Assembly (NCBI GenBank): GCA_016342755.1
Contig: JAEINS010000005.1
Span: forward strand, 186,001-250,000
Source of the DNA: Melioribacteraceae bacterium
GTDB lineage: Bacteria > Bacteroidota > Ignavibacteria > Ignavibacteriales > Melioribacteraceae
Length of the DNA: 64,000 bases
Direction of reading: 5' to 3'
Below are positions 6,442 through 13,108 of this stretch, in pieces. The notes beneath the pieces were generated by a model. It worked only from the letters and a program-made list of their open reading frames with translations, was not told where the DNA came from and searched no databases. The translations under genes were made by a program, and so were the position numbers. The stretch's first letter is position 1, and every line of letters starts with the position of its first letter.

Positions 6442-8196
6442 TCAGCCGGTAAAATACAAATAAGCAGCTAATATAAGCACTACAACTATACTTGATGTAA
6501 CAACATCAATTGCAGTCCAGCTTTTTCTGGTTTCCTCTTTATCCTTTTCAGAAACTAATCCAAATGCCAGTCCGCTTATTTTTTTATAATCCGGCTTTTC
6601 TGTCATATAACTGACTATAAACATTACTGCTGCCGAAACAATAAAGATAATAAGTCCATAATACTGGAAGAAAATATTATTTATTATCCATAAAAACGAA
6701 CCTTGATCATATGTAAATCCTTCTATCATTTTTACGGGAGTATCTATTGCTAACCTTATTATACCTAAGGCAAAACCGGATAACATTGCCGCCAGACTTC
6801 CTTTTGCATTTAATCTTTTGAAGAATACTCCGAAGAAAAATACTACAAATATTGGAGGTGCTAAATATGCCTGAACACCTTGAAGATAATCATATAATCC
6901 TCTGCTACCCTGTATTACCGGAATCCAGACTAATCCAATTATTACCATTACTACTGTTGCAACTCTTCCTATCCAGACCAGTCTTTCCTGAGAAACATTA
7001 GGTCTGATTCTTTGATAAAAATCCATTGTAAATAATGTTGCCGATGCATTAAACACTCCTGCTAACGAACTCATCAAAGCGGCTAACAATCCGGCTACAA
7101 CAATACCTCTAATACCAATTGGCAATATTTGCGTTACCAATAAAGGGAATGCTTTCTGCGCATTAACACGAATTACTTCACCATCAGGACCAATTAATTC
7201 TTTAGCTATTTCTGGCGAAATACCTTGCTGCGCTATTGCAAAAGCTATCATTCCGGGAATAATAAAAATAAACACGGGTAATAATTTTAAGAATGCCGCC
7301 GCTATTGTTCCTCTTCTTGCTTCCATTTGGTTTGGAGCACCAAGAACACGCTGAACAATATATTGATCGGTTGTCCAATACCAGAGTCCAATTATAGGTG
7401 CCGCAAACAGCATTCCTATCCATGGATAGTTATCATTAAAATACCACGCCATTTTACCGGCTTCTTTAACCGGAACCCAGGTAGATTCTATACCTTCTGG
7501 CACAAGCGGTTTCCAGAGATTAAACATTTCAGAATCTAATGATGCTCTAAATGCGTCCCAGCCGCCTAAAGCTTCAAGTCCAAAGTATGTAACCATTATT
7601 GAACCGATTATTAAAATAATTGTCTGAAGTGCTTCTGTATAGGCAACAGCTCTTAGTCCGCCAAGAATTGTATAAATCCCGGTTAAAACAATAACCAGTA
7701 CCGAACCAATCCAAAAGCTATCCAAGCCCATAAAATTTACATCCGGTAATAAAACTCCAAATACAATACCTCCGGCAAAAATACCTACTGCTATCTTTGT
7801 TATTACATAGGCAACTAACGAAATTACCGATAATACTGTTCTTGAAGCCGGCGAAAATCTTTTTTCCAAAAATTCCGGCATGGTAAATACTTTTGACCGC
7901 ATATAAAACGGAGCCATAACCCAGCCAAGCACCAGCAAACACCAGGCGTGTAGTTCATAGTGTGCCATTGCAACACCATCTGTTGTACCCGAACCTGCTA
8001 ATCCCACTAAATGTTCTGATCCGATATTTGATGCAAAAATTGACGCACCAACTACAAACCAGCCTAAATTACGCCCGGCTAAAAAATAATCTTCTGAATT
8101 TTGATTTCTTTGCCTGATAACCCACCAGGCTAAACCAAGGATTATTCCAAAGTAACCGAGAATAATCAACCAGTCAACAACGTGTAATGATGACAA
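6442..8196 (-). CDS. Sodium:solute (sugar) symporter, SSS family
   Basis: A 584-residue integral membrane protein with about 13-14 hydrophobic segments, of the SLC5/SSS family (SEDYFLAGRNLGWFVVGASIFASNIGSEHLVGLAGSG at the N-terminal core, residues about 34-70). Members couple sugar uptake to sodium. The start codon is TTG, with a strong GGAGG site five bases upstream. It is the last gene after galM and the AraB-AraA chimera, and an AraR-type regulator lies nearby, so L-arabinose or a related pentose is the likely substrate by analogy with Bacteroides arabinose loci. The substrate is inferred from neighbours only. The frame is intact, unlike several neighbours. Confidence 0.9.
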   Translation of the reverse strand: MSSLHVVDWLIILGYFGIILGLAWWVIRQRNQNSEDYFLAGRNLGWFVVGASIFASNIGSEHLVGLAGSGTTDGVAMAHYELHAWCLLVLGWVMAPFYMRSKVFTMPEFLEKRFSPASRTVLSVISLVAYVITKIAVGIFAGGIVFGVLLPDVNFMGLDSFWIGSVLVIVLTGIYTILGGLRAVAYTEALQTIILIIGSIMVTYFGLEALGGWDAFRASLDSEMFNLWKPLVPEGIESTWVPVKEAGKMAWYFNDNYPWIGMLFAAPIIGLWYWTTDQYIVQRVLGAPNQMEARRGTIAAAFLKLLPVFIFIIPGMIAFAIAQQGISPEIAKELIGPDGEVIRVNAQKAFPLLVTQILPIGIRGIVVAGLLAALMSSLAGVFNASATLFTMDFYQRIRPNVSQERLVWIGRVATVVMVIIGLVWIPVIQGSRGLYDYLQGVQAYLAPPIFVVFFFGVFFKRLNAKGSLAAMLSGFALGIIRLAIDTPVKMIEGFTYDQGSFLWIINNIFFQYYGLIIFIVSAAVMFIVSYMTEKPDYKKISGLAFGLVSEKDKEETRKSWTAIDVVTSSIVVVLILAAYLYFTG

Positions 8197-8260: not shown

Positions 8261-9643
8261 CTATTTATACGCCACAGAATTCCAAAGTAACTCTTGTTTG
8301 AAACTTCTGATTTTTGTATCCGCGTCAATAACCACAATTTCAACACCTGCAATAGCACACCAGTCATCAATAAACTCCGTTGTAACTGACTGTGAGAAAC
8401 CTGAATGATGGGCAGCACCCGAATGTATCCAGGCAGCGGCTCCTATTTGCAAATTAGGTTTTGGTTCCCACATTACTCTTGCAACAGGTAAATTTGGGAA
8501 ATCAGCATCGGGTTTAACAACATCAACTTCATTAACAACCATTCTGAATCTGTTTCCCATATCTATTAACGAAACATTTATTTCGGCTCCGGCCGCAGTA
8601 TCGAAAACCAAACGCGCAGGATCATCTTTACCGCCAATTCCTAAGGGATGGACTTCTAAGTTTGGCTTTCCTTCGGCAATTGAGGGACAAACCTCTAACA
8701 TGTGAGCTCCCAGAACTTTCATTCCTGATGGATCTAAATGATAGGTATAATCTCCCATAAATGATGTACCGCCTGTTAAGTCGCTTCCCATAACTTTTAT
8801 TGCACGGACTAAGGCTGAAGTTTTCCAGTCACCTTCGGCACCAACAGCTCCCATGTGTGCGTCAAAAGCTCCTACAGAAATCGCAACGTCTCTGCTTAGT
8901 CCTAATTTCTCTGCCCAGTCAGCCGAAAGGTTGCCAAGTTTTTCTTCGGCAGAATAAGCCTTTGTATAAAGCCTGTCTCTTAGCTCAACAAGTTCAGGCG
9001 ATAAAAGCGATAAAAAATCTTTATCAGGCAATCCGTTCCATTCATCACAGAACATTGCTTTATGCCCTACAGCGCAGATACTTCTTTTAATATTTTCCGG
9101 TTTTAAGTCTCCGCATAAATTTGCTGAGATCCAGTCGCATATTTCTATAAAGCTATAAGCATCTTTAAACACCTGGTTTGAAGATCTTTTACATTTTAAT
9201 ATTTTACTCCAAAACCATTCTGAAGAATAGACTCCTCCAATTTTTGCTAAATACTGAGGTCGTATTTCCGCGGCTTCTTCATGAGCAGTGTGATCTTTCC
9301 ATAACCACACGTAAGCTGCTTTATCATCCTTAAATTCTTCCTTATATGATAGCGGCATACCTTCTGGATCGACTGGTAAAGGACTTGAGCCTGTTGTATC
9401 AACACCGATTCCAATAATATCTTTCGGATCAAACTCACTGTTTAGTTCTTTAGCTTTTTTAATTGCTTCAGTAATTGTTACTTCAATTCCCAGTATATAA
9501 TCAGCCGAATCTACAATTATACCTTGTTCTCCCGTTGAGTATGGAAATACATAACTTGCTAATTCATTTCCATTCGAAAGATCAACAATTAACGACCGGC
9601 ATGAATTTGTACCGTAATCTAAACCTATTGCGTATTTGCTCAT
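8261..9643 (-). CDS. In-frame chimera: L-ribulokinase N-half fused to L-arabinose isomerase C-terminus
   Basis: The 460-residue frame is not a normal enzyme. Residues 1 to about 267 match ribulokinase AraB ([33 protein letters not shown], then [13 protein letters not shown]). From about 268 to the end it matches the last 190 or so residues of arabinose isomerase AraA ([76 protein letters not shown]). The FGGY C-terminal domain of AraB, the N-terminal 300 residues of AraA, and any araD between them are missing. The join falls at GTTGGTGCCGAAGG, around 8840-8848, where AraB and AraA both encode Gly-Ala. The frame stays open throughout, so the event is a recent deletion or an assembly collapse. 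Neither activity should survive, since AraB lacks its ATP-binding half. Confidence 0.85.
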
Positions 9644-9660: not shown

Positions 9661-10806
9661 CTATTTTGCTGAAAAACGATAAACTGTTTTCTGGGAATAT
9701 GTATCGCCTGGTTTAAGAATAACTGATGGGAAATTTTCTTTATTTGGTGAATCAGGATAATGTTGAGCTTCAAGACATAAACCGCTTCTATAATTATACA
9801 CAACATTATTTTTACCTGTAATTGAACCATCCAGAAAATTGCCAGAGTAGAACTGCAATCCAGGTTCAGTAGTTAGAACTTCCATAACTCTGCCGCTATT
9901 TTTTTCATACAGAGTTACAGCTAATTTTAAAGTTCCGTCATAATTATTAAGCACCCAGTTATGATCGTAGCCAAGACCAAATTTCAATTGTTCTTCATCG
10001 TTAGTTATATCTTTCCCAATAGCTTTAGCCGTTCTAAAATCGAATGCGGTATTTTCAACATTTACTAACTCTCCGGTTGTAATTAATCCGCTATCTACCG
10101 GAGTAAACTGATCTGCGTTTATAATTAGTTCGTGATCAAGAATAGAACTTTCTTTGCCTGTTAAATTAAAATAAGAATGGTGAGTAGGATTAAAAATTGT
10201 CTTCTTATCTGTTTTACCCGAATACTCAATTATTAATTCATTTTCATTTGAAAGAGTATAGAATACCGTAATATCAAGATTTCCCGGATAACCTTCTTCG
10301 CCATCATAACTGTGGTAACTCAATTTTAAAGCTGATCCATTTTCAACTTTAACAGGCTCTGCCTGCCAAACAACTTTATCAAAACCATTTAAACCACCGT
10401 GCAGATGATTTTCGCCATTATTAATAGTCAGTTGATAAGGTACATCATCAATTTTAAATTTCCCGTTTCCAATCCTATTTCCGTATCTGCCAACAATAGC
10501 TCCAAAATACGGGCTTTCTCTTAAATATTTATACAGACTGTCATTACCTAAAACAATATCTTCAAATTTATTATTACGGTCAGGCATAGTTAAAGAAACT
10601 ATTATAGCTCCATAGTTTGTAACCTGCATTACAGACCCTTTGTTATTCTTAAGCGTATAAAGATCTACATTATTTCCATCCCCGGTTTTACCCCACGAAA
10701 TTTTTTCAACTTCTGCTGGTTTCAATTCTTCCTTCTGGCAAGAATTTAATATTGGTGAAATGATTAAAATTAATGCCATAATAATTTGTTTCGAATATTT
10801 CTTCAT
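9661..10806 (-). CDS. galM: Aldose 1-epimerase (mutarotase), lipoprotein form
   Basis: A 381-residue GalM-family mutarotase, which interconverts alpha and beta anomers of aldoses. The catalytic His lies in NPTHHSYFNLTGK and the catalytic Glu in GLCLEAQHYPDSPNK; substrate-binding NGENHLHGG and YGNRIGNGKF are present. The N-terminus is a lipoprotein signal with the lipobox Cys at residue 23 (ILNSCQKEE), so it acts outside the cytoplasm, anchored to a membrane. It is 17 bases upstream of the AraB-AraA chimera and presumably co-transcribed with it and the symporter, consistent with conditioning arabinose or another sugar before uptake. The remnant of a XylR-like gene ends 12 bases before its start. 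Confidence 0.9.
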   Translation of the reverse strand: MKKYSKQIIMALILIISPILNSCQKEELKPAEVEKISWGKTGDGNNVDLYTLKNNKGSVMQVTNYGAIIVSLTMPDRNNKFEDIVLGNDSLYKYLRESPYFGAIVGRYGNRIGNGKFKIDDVPYQLTINNGENHLHGGLNGFDKVVWQAEPVKVENGSALKLSYHSYDGEEGYPGNLDITVFYTLSNENELIIEYSGKTDKKTIFNPTHHSYFNLTGKESSILDHELIINADQFTPVDSGLITTGELVNVENTAFDFRTAKAIGKDITNDEEQLKFGLGYDHNWVLNNYDGTLKLAVTLYEKNSGRVMEVLTTEPGLQFYSGNFLDGSITGKNNVVYNYRSGLCLEAQHYPDSPNKENFPSVILKPGDTYSQKTVYRFSAK

Positions 10807-10818
10807 ACTTAAAATCCC

Positions 10819-11154
10819 TTATAAAAAAGTATTAAAATTTTGTTTTTCATTTGTTGTAAAACTAAAGTTTGTAATAACGGATGGAATACGTGAGACTCCC
10901 TTTTTTAAATGAAGAACAGTTATTATTGATAGCTTCATTGCTTTTAACTCATTGCTAATAGGAACATCACGCATAATTATTCCATCAGCATCCCATTTTT
11001 CTATATTGGGTATTGCAGATTTTAATCCGCGAGGATCTCTGTAAAAAGTCCAGGGGCTATGTATTCCAGAGTATCTGACAATTCCATTAAGCAAGTCACG
11101 TCCAAATGCACGGGAAGTTTCTACCAGTAATATTACTTTTTTAAGATTATTCAA
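10819..11154 (-). pseudogene. Truncated XylR-like (periplasmic-binding/AraC) regulator
   Basis: The first 95 or so residues match the N-terminus of XylR-type regulators, which bind a sugar in a LacI-like domain and DNA with a C-terminal AraC domain (VILLVETSRAFGRDLLNGIV, SPWTFYRDPRGL, DADGIIMRDVP, PSVITN). Normal length is about 390 residues; here the frame stops after 111. After PSVITN the sequence turns into unrelated residues and ends just before galM. About 280 codons including the whole DNA-binding domain are gone, apparently through a deletion that joined the gene to the galM leader. It should not function. Confidence 0.75.
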
Positions 11155-11362: not shown

Positions 11363-12058
11363 TCACAATTGAAAATTAAATCCTTCATCTTTCAGTTTTT
11401 TAAATGCCTTAGAATCAAATTTATATAATCTGGCAGCTCTGTGCGAAACACCTTTCTGATACTCGTTTAACGGAACTAACATTTTTAAGCTTAAAATTCT
11501 TTTTCTGTAATTCCTTTTATCAACTTCCTCTCCAAGGATCGATTCATAGAGATTCTGTAATTGGGTTAATGAAAATTTTTCCGGCAATAATTCAAAACCA
11601 ATTGGTTTAGTTCTAACTCTTTTCCTTAGCTGATTAAGTGCCCTGTCAAATATTTCCTGATGATCGAATGGGAAATCAATAGGATCCTTAACTTTTTGCC
11701 ATTTCACATCAGTTGCATCAATACCCGGTTTTAATGAATGTTTTTCCGGGTTCACCAAGGCTAAGTACGCAACACTAATAACTCTCCTTAAAGGAAATCT
11801 GTCTGTTTTACTGAATGTATGCACCTGTTCCAGATAAATATTTTTCACATTACTGGTTTCTTCAAGAAGCCTGACTGCGGCATCATCTAAAGTTTCGCTT
11901 TTTAAAATGAATCCCCCGGGTAATGCCCAACTATCTTTACCCGGATTAAGTTTTCTTTTTATTAATAGCACTTCGAGTTCAAAATTTTCAAATCCGAATA
12001 CTACACAATCGACTGATAAATTCTTTATAATTTGTTTTGAAACATTTGTCAATTCCAT
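11363..12058 (-). CDS. araR: AraR-type regulator with a NUDIX-like domain
   Basis: About 231 residues. The N-terminal 140 form a NUDIX-like fold (DSWALPGGFILKSETLDDAA), but the catalytic box is degenerate: RLLEETSNV stands where REUxEExGU is expected, so hydrolysis is unlikely. The C-terminal part (LQNLYESILGEEVDKRNYRK, then HRAARLYKFD) is the winged-helix DNA-binding region of the NrtR/AraR group. In Bacteroides, AraR proteins of this architecture repress L-arabinose genes and release DNA on binding the sugar. The ATG three codons' reach inside an upstream GTG is preferred, although its GAGAGG site lies close to it. A perfect 8-2-8 palindrome sits about 20 bases upstream. Assignment rests on fold and ara neighbours; other sugar ligands are possible. 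Confidence 0.75.
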   Translation of the reverse strand: MELTNVSKQIIKNLSVDCVVFGFENFELEVLLIKRKLNPGKDSWALPGGFILKSETLDDAAVRLLEETSNVKNIYLEQVHTFSKTDRFPLRRVISVAYLALVNPEKHSLKPGIDATDVKWQKVKDPIDFPFDHQEIFDRALNQLRKRVRTKPIGFELLPEKFSLTQLQNLYESILGEEVDKRNYRKRILSLKMLVPLNEYQKGVSHRAARLYKFDSKAFKKLKDEGFNFQL

Positions 12059-12078
12059 CACCTCTCTTAGTGTTATTT

Positions 12079-12096
12079 TACAATAACCTTATTGTA
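12079..12096. promoter_or_regulatory. Palindromic operator candidate before araR
   Basis: TACAATAACCTTATTGTA is a perfect inverted repeat with 8-base arms and a 2-base spacer, ending 21 bases before the chosen araR start codon. The position suggests autorepression by AraR. I saw no second copy upstream of galM or the XylR remnant, which weakens a wider role. Confidence 0.5.
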
Positions 12097-12410
12097 TTTT
12101 TTACACTTATCAAGTATATTGTTTTTTGGTAATTTTAACAACGAAAAAGTATATAAATAAAGGTGAAAATGTCCTTGTGTAACTTATTAATTTGGGTTTG
12201 TAAACTCCTGCTGTTATAAATTTGCCGTTAATTAATTTAATCCTATTCAAAAAAAAAGTATGTACAGCTTAGACTTTTTTTTATACAAACCTAATAATGC
12301 ATTTTATTGTTCCCGCAATTTAGCCACTGAATTATCAATAAAATTTCATTTAAGCTAGCCCTTCCCACAATTAACAGGCACTAATTTAATCAAAAATAAA
12401 AGCAGATAAA
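12097..12410. other. Intergenic, no gene seen
   Basis: This AT-rich stretch separates araR from the dehydrogenase remnant. It holds a run of A with GT, and ACTTTTTTTT about 13 bases later (12250-12282), which can form an all-A/T hairpin. No coding remnant, tRNA-like fold or convincing promoter was recognised. Confidence 0.5.
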
Positions 12411-12797
12411 ATAAACTACTTAAATAATCTATTTAACCTTAATGGAAAAGTTACGGCTAAAATTCTTAGCAAATTTGGAAGAATTGATATTCTTGTAAAT
12501 GCTGTCGGCGGAAATATGCCAGGCGCTACTATTGGTTTATGTCAAACTATTTTAGACTTAAAAATTGAAGAATTTAATAAAGTTACAAATCTAAATTTCG
12601 AAGGCACAGTTTTACCGATACTGGTATTTGGTAAAAAGATGGCAGATCAAAAATCGGGATCAATTATTAATATCTCTTCGATGACCACTTTTAGAGCAAT
12701 AACAAGAGTAGTCGGATATTCAGCGGCTAAATCAGCTGTATCAGACGAATGGTGGTTATTTTTAATTATTAATCCCTTCTTCCAAACTGATAGTTAA
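12411..12797 (+). pseudogene. Broken short-chain dehydrogenase (mannonate/fructuronate-type SDR)
   Basis: A + strand frame keeps SDR pieces: NYLNNLFNLNGKV matches the family's first residues, then jumps directly to AKILSKFGRIDILVNAVGGN, omitting about 70 codons with the Rossmann GxxxGxG motif. It continues through GSIINISSM and the active-site region GYSAAKSAV (Y and K of YxxxK), then turns into unrelated residues and stops. No ATG opens the frame; ATA stands where a start would be expected. The order of motifs resembles SDRs of hexuronate metabolism (UxuB-like). Lost start, internal deletion and lost C-terminus make this a decayed gene. Confidence 0.75.
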
Positions 12798-12806
12798 AAA
12801 AATGGT

Positions 12807-13009
12807 TTAATTCCCGTCAAAATTCGTGGCAGCTCCAAGTGTAGTTCCTTTTACCATAACATTTGCGCCGGTTAAAGAATTACCTGATTCCTTTTCGGTA
12901 ATTACACCTTTTATTCTGCCTGTCTGCGCCAAAGTAACAGATTGCAGCAGAAACACAGATAATAAAATAAATATTGCTAAACTAATTTTACCCGATCTTT
13001 TATTTTCAT
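12807..13009 (-). pseudogene. N-terminal remnant of a SusC-like TonB-dependent receptor
   Basis: Reading the - strand, a signal peptide (ISLAIFILLSVFLLQSVTLAQ) is followed by TGRIKGVITEKESGNSLTGA and NVMVKGTTLGAATNFDGN, the start of the carboxypeptidase-regulatory-like domain of SusC/RagA-type outer-membrane receptors. A stop then truncates it. The ATG is out of frame with this peptide: ATGAAAATAAAAG would need one more A (ATGAAAAATAAAAG) to encode MKNKRSGK. About 900 residues including plug and barrel are missing. It is a dead fragment, pointing to a lost polysaccharide-uptake receptor. Confidence 0.75.
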
Positions 13010-13108
13010 TCTTACTTCTTCCTTAAGAATTATATGCAATATTTTCTATTATAGTTTTCAATTAAATATTATAACTTCTAATTAAAAGAGATAATACTGT
13101 AACCAATT

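Follow-up and report, generated by a model that had tools for sequence, protein, structure and literature searches.

Is the open frame that lies between a mutarotase gene and a symporter gene in this Melioribacteraceae genome an enzyme, or is it what remains of two enzymes? The earlier note had read this part of the window (the whole stretch of 64,000 nucleotides that was analysed) as a single 460-codon frame with a ribulokinase start and an arabinose isomerase end. Profiles from Pfam and NCBIfam bear out this composition; the coordinates given for the frame were exact, and the minus strand, which had been left unstated, is now added (Table 1).

Table 1. Features in and around the fused frame (window positions; strand as given).
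Feature	Position	Strand	Remarks
Sodium:solute symporter (AraP-like)	6442..8196	-	584 aa, whole; begins 64 bp downstream of the fusion
araB'-'araA chimeric frame	8261..9643	-	460 codons; ATG at 9643, TAG at 8261; no internal stops
AraA-derived part	8261..8835	-	tail of central domain and complete C-terminal domain; no N-terminal domain
Codon GGA (Gly297) at the AraA catalytic Glu position	8753..8755	-	E333 in 2AJT, E332 in 4R1Q numbering
Joint TTGGTGCCG	8836..8844	-	Gly-Ala codon pair at 8842-8837
AraB-derived part	8845..9643	-	ribulokinase N-terminal half (FGGY_N); no C-terminal FGGY_C
Aldose 1-epimerase (AraM/GalM-like mutarotase)	9661..10806	-	whole; 17 bp lie between its end and the start of the fusion
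XylR-type regulator stump	10819..11154	-	111 aa; 24.5 bits, slightly below the cut-off of 27
NrtR/AraR-type regulator (Nudix and winged helix)	11363..12061	-	whole; Pfam
SDR stump (D-mannonate oxidoreductase-like)	12516..12797	+	93 aa; equivalent in L134 is 274 aa
CarbopepD_reg-start stump	12810..13010	-	66 residues; 32.0 bits, cut-off 32.2

The NCBIfam ribulokinase profile PRK04123 matches residues 2-279 of the fusion with its positions 3-294 of 554 (E 1.9e-83), and the L-arabinose isomerase profile PRK02929 matches residues 267-460 with positions 303-496 of 499 (E 8.3e-88). Half a ribulokinase and half an isomerase cannot have come to share one frame by chance. Pfam finds FGGY_N (residues 4-268, positions 1-245 of 245) and Arabinose_Iso_C (residues 292-435, positions 1-144 of 144) complete, together with the last 21 positions only of AraA_central (residues 267-287; 22.2 bits, slightly below the cut-off of 24), and its scan of the 460 residues reported no match to FGGY_C or AraA_N. 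An L-ribulokinase is recognized by both FGGY lobes and a score above the curated cut-off, and an L-arabinose isomerase by three domains and such a score. The fusion has neither set of domains and neither score, reaching 281 bits against 428 for ribulokinase (a second NCBIfam ribulokinase score is 229.7 against 583.25 bits) and 295.3 against 622 bits for isomerase, far below the cut-offs for complete enzymes. Nor does it retain the catalytic domains of both parents, as a functional enzyme fusion would, since FGGY_C and AraA_N are missing.

The arrangement from which such a frame could have come was sought in 15 related loci holding both araB and araA; L032 and L094, both labelled as members of the window's family, are likely copies of L135 and L140 and were left out of the locus, joint, invariant-column and fit analyses. 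A comparison with intact araB, araD and araA of relatives had been called for, and in all 15 loci araB, a frame at the araD position and araA are separate, consecutive genes on one strand, with the araB of one locus (L134) interrupted. The middle frame is 228-237 aa long in each locus, and the eight that were scanned are all AraD (PRK08193, every one above its cut-off). Between the points that are joined in the window lie 2323-2556 bp (median 2473), in agreement with the earlier estimate that about 2.4 kb, including araD, is missing from the usual araB-araD-araA order. The two truncated genes stand in the order and orientation found in 15/15 loci, and the AraB half is up to 70% identical to araB of the relatives. 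The related clusters (e.g., L127, L131 and L135) thus carry the same genes in the same order, but as three separate genes where the window has one fusion. In L134 (positions 6465-8010, genome G131) the interrupted araB consists of 371 codons followed by an overlapping frame of 187 codons, with araD and araA that look whole; this possibly marks a further case of arabinose genes beginning to be lost, or else an error in the sequence.

The two genes had been proposed to join at a Gly-Ala codon pair common to both, near 8840-8848, and such a pair indeed lies inside the nine-base joint, where the window reads GCTG-TTGGTGCCG-AAGG. The fusion stays in frame because Gly-Ala is read in one and the same frame at both places. 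The whole nine-base run was found in araB of one of the 15 relatives (L128) and in araA of one other (L140), and in both genes of none; the shorter TTGGTGC occurs at the equivalent place in 8/15 araB and 9/15 araA, and in both genes of five relatives. As measured in the relatives rather than in the lost copies of this species, the longest run shared by araB and araA is at least seven bases in six loci (nine in L127 and L141; seven in L134, L136, L137 and L139) and four to six bases in the remaining nine, in a few of which it lies off the Gly-Ala codons. Since four to nine bases are thus common to both genes within single relatives, the deletion likely occurred between short direct repeats, which the sequences would put at 7 to 9 bases; the lack of a relative with the full nine-base run in both genes, and the nine loci with shorter overlaps, count against it.

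We searched the window's own genome (56 contigs totalling 4,731,990 bases, with ratings of 100% for completeness and 0.48% for contamination) with profiles for full copies of araB, araD and araA elsewhere, as the earlier note had advised, and found none. Arabinose_Iso_C gave one match, the fusion itself, and AraA_N gave no match in this genome (5 of 14 control genomes were positive). FGGY_N matched three proteins: the fusion, a rhamnulokinase that passes its cut-off with 540.5 bits, and a xylulokinase-like protein for which NCBIfam lists a single match, to xylulokinase (307.8 bits, below the cut-off of 380.25). The class II aldolase domain gave three matches, two of which fall in a single protein of 426 residues, one in each half. 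As a backup for AraD, this two-domain class II aldolase, on contig C12, was rejected, as it adjoins the rhamnulokinase, has its best matches in fuculose-phosphate aldolase models and matches no AraD model at E 1e-40; that on contig C5 exceeds the cut-off of model PRK08660, and its contig is archaeal-looking and so foreign. The archaeal-looking genes of C5 (L143) also include, as judged by eye, a sulfite-reductase-like protein and a surface protein whose tail is sorting-like; the contig is probably contamination, and the assembly may derive from a mixed sample. The profile searches of the 56 contigs thus recovered no AraA beyond the fused part, no further ribulokinase and nothing recognized as AraD, and the lost segment has no copy in the remaining genome. 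Because of this, the AraBAD route is, by gene content, gone from this assembly; xylose genes remain, among them a xylose isomerase above its cut-off. The proposed loss of L-arabinose catabolism accordingly stands with its scope set to the AraBAD route.

The transporter, mutarotase and regulator that had been described as retained are all whole by Pfam and NCBIfam. The symporter is 72-76% identical to symporters adjoining araB in 9 of the 15 relatives; in those nine loci it stands directly before araB, and in the window it follows the cluster. GalM is adjacent in six of the nine, and two of the other three end at contig edges, so that galM-symporter-araB is the order in 6/15 related loci, whereas the window has galM-fusion-symporter. 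The AraR-type regulator is 77% identical to one that in L127 lies some 3 kb away from araA. According to PMC4666351, Bacteroides possesses an AraR-controlled araMPRDAB operon, which like the window brings together a mutarotase, an inner-membrane transporter, an NrtR-type AraR and arabinose enzymes; the Bacteroides operon has its enzymes, whereas those of the window are reduced to one fused remnant. By analogy with this AraR system, the mutarotase, symporter and regulator of the window are predicted to have arabinose roles. Just before the AraR-like gene, GTGTAAAAAATACAA at 12092-12106 (minus strand) resembles the Bacteroides AraR operator and has no mismatch to a loose pattern of it; this loose pattern occurs 24 times in the window, where 13.7 occurrences would be expected, and 2 of 100 shuffles reach 24, which is only weakly above chance and too slight to build on.

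Three further gene stumps, all within 5 kb around the fusion, accompany these whole genes. The XylR-type stump is 44-54% identical to proteins of L133 and L135, and its relatives are 379-386 aa long. The stump at 12810-13010 is probably the beginning of a SusC-type receptor. Such side-by-side truncations suggest that this stretch is losing genes by several deletions.

The AraA half carries a change at a catalytic position. A glutamate numbered E331, E332 or E333 according to the enzyme is catalytic in AraA, as stated in PMC4929721, PMC11172353 and PMC12842569, and the catalytic residues are given in the literature as E306, E333, H350 and H450 (E. coli numbering). In the alignment, isomerases of solved structure have Glu where the fusion has Gly297. 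The equivalents of E306, H350 and H450 are present in the fusion. A census of distinct AraA fragments that fit a motif pattern around both catalytic glutamates in the sampled loci found Glu at this position in 83 of 83 other fragments and Gly in the window alone (84 distinct fragments). The Gly297 codon is one base away from a Glu codon.

Elsewhere in the frame, decay is less marked. Of 100 invariant AraB columns, 4 are changed (0-5 in the controls). For AraA, 8 of the 83 invariant columns listed are changed; with three set aside that are misaligned at the joint, this becomes 5 of 80 (0-7 in the controls). In a leave-one-out profile fit, both halves of the window's frame are the poorest of 16, its GalM is the poorest of 12 and its symporter the third-poorest of 10 (these rows, 10 and 12 with the window counted, were limited to symporters of more than 60% and GalM of more than 50% identity); its terminal branch is the third-longest for the AraB part, the second-longest for the AraA part and the symporter, and the longest for GalM. 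Fit and branch lengths are no proof of relaxed selection, since GalM and the symporter of the window are divergent as well and the poorer fit is in part a divergence of the lineage. The event had been called recent on the ground that the frame carries no stop, and this holds loosely: of 1000 trials of simulated neutral point change, 25.5% left the frame without a stop when 2% of sites were changed, 3.7% did so when 5% were and 0.1% when 10% were, from which the event is young if the frame is unconstrained.

The fusion protein was searched for in three overlapping sets of genomes, with the window's own genome counted among the matches of each: 19 of 58 relatives gave a match, as did 44 of 164 genomes of the order and 98 of 395 genomes from the phylum. 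Among the matches listed, a full-length one occurs in the window's genome alone, all others cover one part, and a second AraB-AraA fusion is absent; nor does one occur among the 80 related loci covered, out of 267 relatives. The 58 relatives include no genome of the same genus, and no other occurs among 64 of the 164 genomes of the order. Two candidates for a second fusion were rejected. In L106, residues 1-459 are matched within one locus, yet this locus has araA, which runs off the start of its contig, and then a separate araB. In genome G284, a 1054-codon open frame around araB was taken as a chance extension; an 821-codon frame there starts within the gene before araB, out of frame with that gene, and enters araB, and the DNA looks GC-rich. 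Among the papers listed in literature searches, no title or abstract opening names a natural AraB-AraA fusion. In genome G429 (L149:1537-3909), FGGY kinase domains and a class II aldolase domain stand together in one frame of 790 residues, a natural AraB-AraD fusion that, like the frame in the window, unites two arabinose enzymes; FGGY_C, Aldolase_II and part of FGGY_N are matched there, whereas the window's fusion retains part of each parent.

We conclude, with a probability of about 0.86, that one deletion in araB-araD-araA produced a young fusion pseudogene and with it the loss of the AraBAD route. As comparison with the relatives shows, a single deletion of about 2.5 kb took all of araD together with the second half of araB and the first 60% of araA. 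It most likely ran between short alike runs such as the one now at the joint, near profile position 294 in araB and near 303 in araA, presumably by slipped replication or strand annealing. The two stumps would thereby have been joined as one open frame within the galM-fusion-symporter cluster, and being in frame may, speculatively, help the downstream symporter stay expressed. As predicted from its families, the product should have neither kinase nor isomerase activity, because the kinase half is without its second lobe and the isomerase tail without its first domain and the catalytic Glu.

It is unlikely that the frame is instead an assembly collapse or chimeric joining, with an intact araBDA cluster in the cell and 2.5 kb lost in assembly or binning. 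Such an error would be in keeping with a genome in 56 contigs, at least one of them apparently foreign (C5), so that the sample may be mixed. What argues against it above all is the catalytic change, since a working araA should keep the Glu that 83/83 other fragments have. The run shared by the two genes is moreover at most nine bases in the relatives, and a nine-base run is too short for assembler overlap or k-mer collapse; the lost domains are on no other contig, and three more gene stumps lie within 5 kb. A working chimera, in which the sugar-binding FGGY_N lobe and the AraA C-terminal domain would serve as a binding or regulatory protein, would account for two complete Pfam domains joined at the end of FGGY_N, for an open frame closely spaced with its neighbours and for changes at invariant columns that stay inside the control range. 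We nevertheless hold it to be very improbable, given that the fusion occurs in one genome only among the matches listed in the 58, 164 and 395 overlapping genomes, that the catalytic Glu is lost and that the neighbours are stumps too, as decay predicts; in the natural AraB-AraD fusion, moreover, the two kinase lobes are still matched, as is the epimerase domain. That the fusion was retained as a non-catalytic binding protein for L-arabinose or L-ribulose, with the transporter cluster now serving other uptake or regulation, is likewise very improbable.

Deletion between short direct repeats is an established source of gene fusions and fusion pseudogenes, as in the classical lacI deletions. As in such deletions, the segment between the repeats would be lost, one copy would stay at the joint and the truncated neighbours would be joined; the present case differs in that two enzymes of one pathway are fused in frame, a whole third gene is lost and the repeat is deduced from relatives. 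The deletion pseudogene is an ordinary, common kind of gene loss, and its mechanism is not new. Its consequence for the organism is that one deletion would hit three enzymes of a sugar pathway, with the transporter, mutarotase and regulator staying behind as leftovers. Lastly, it carries a warning for annotation, as automatic naming could label the frame 'ribulokinase' or 'arabinose isomerase' and so credit the organism with a use of L-arabinose that is probably absent.
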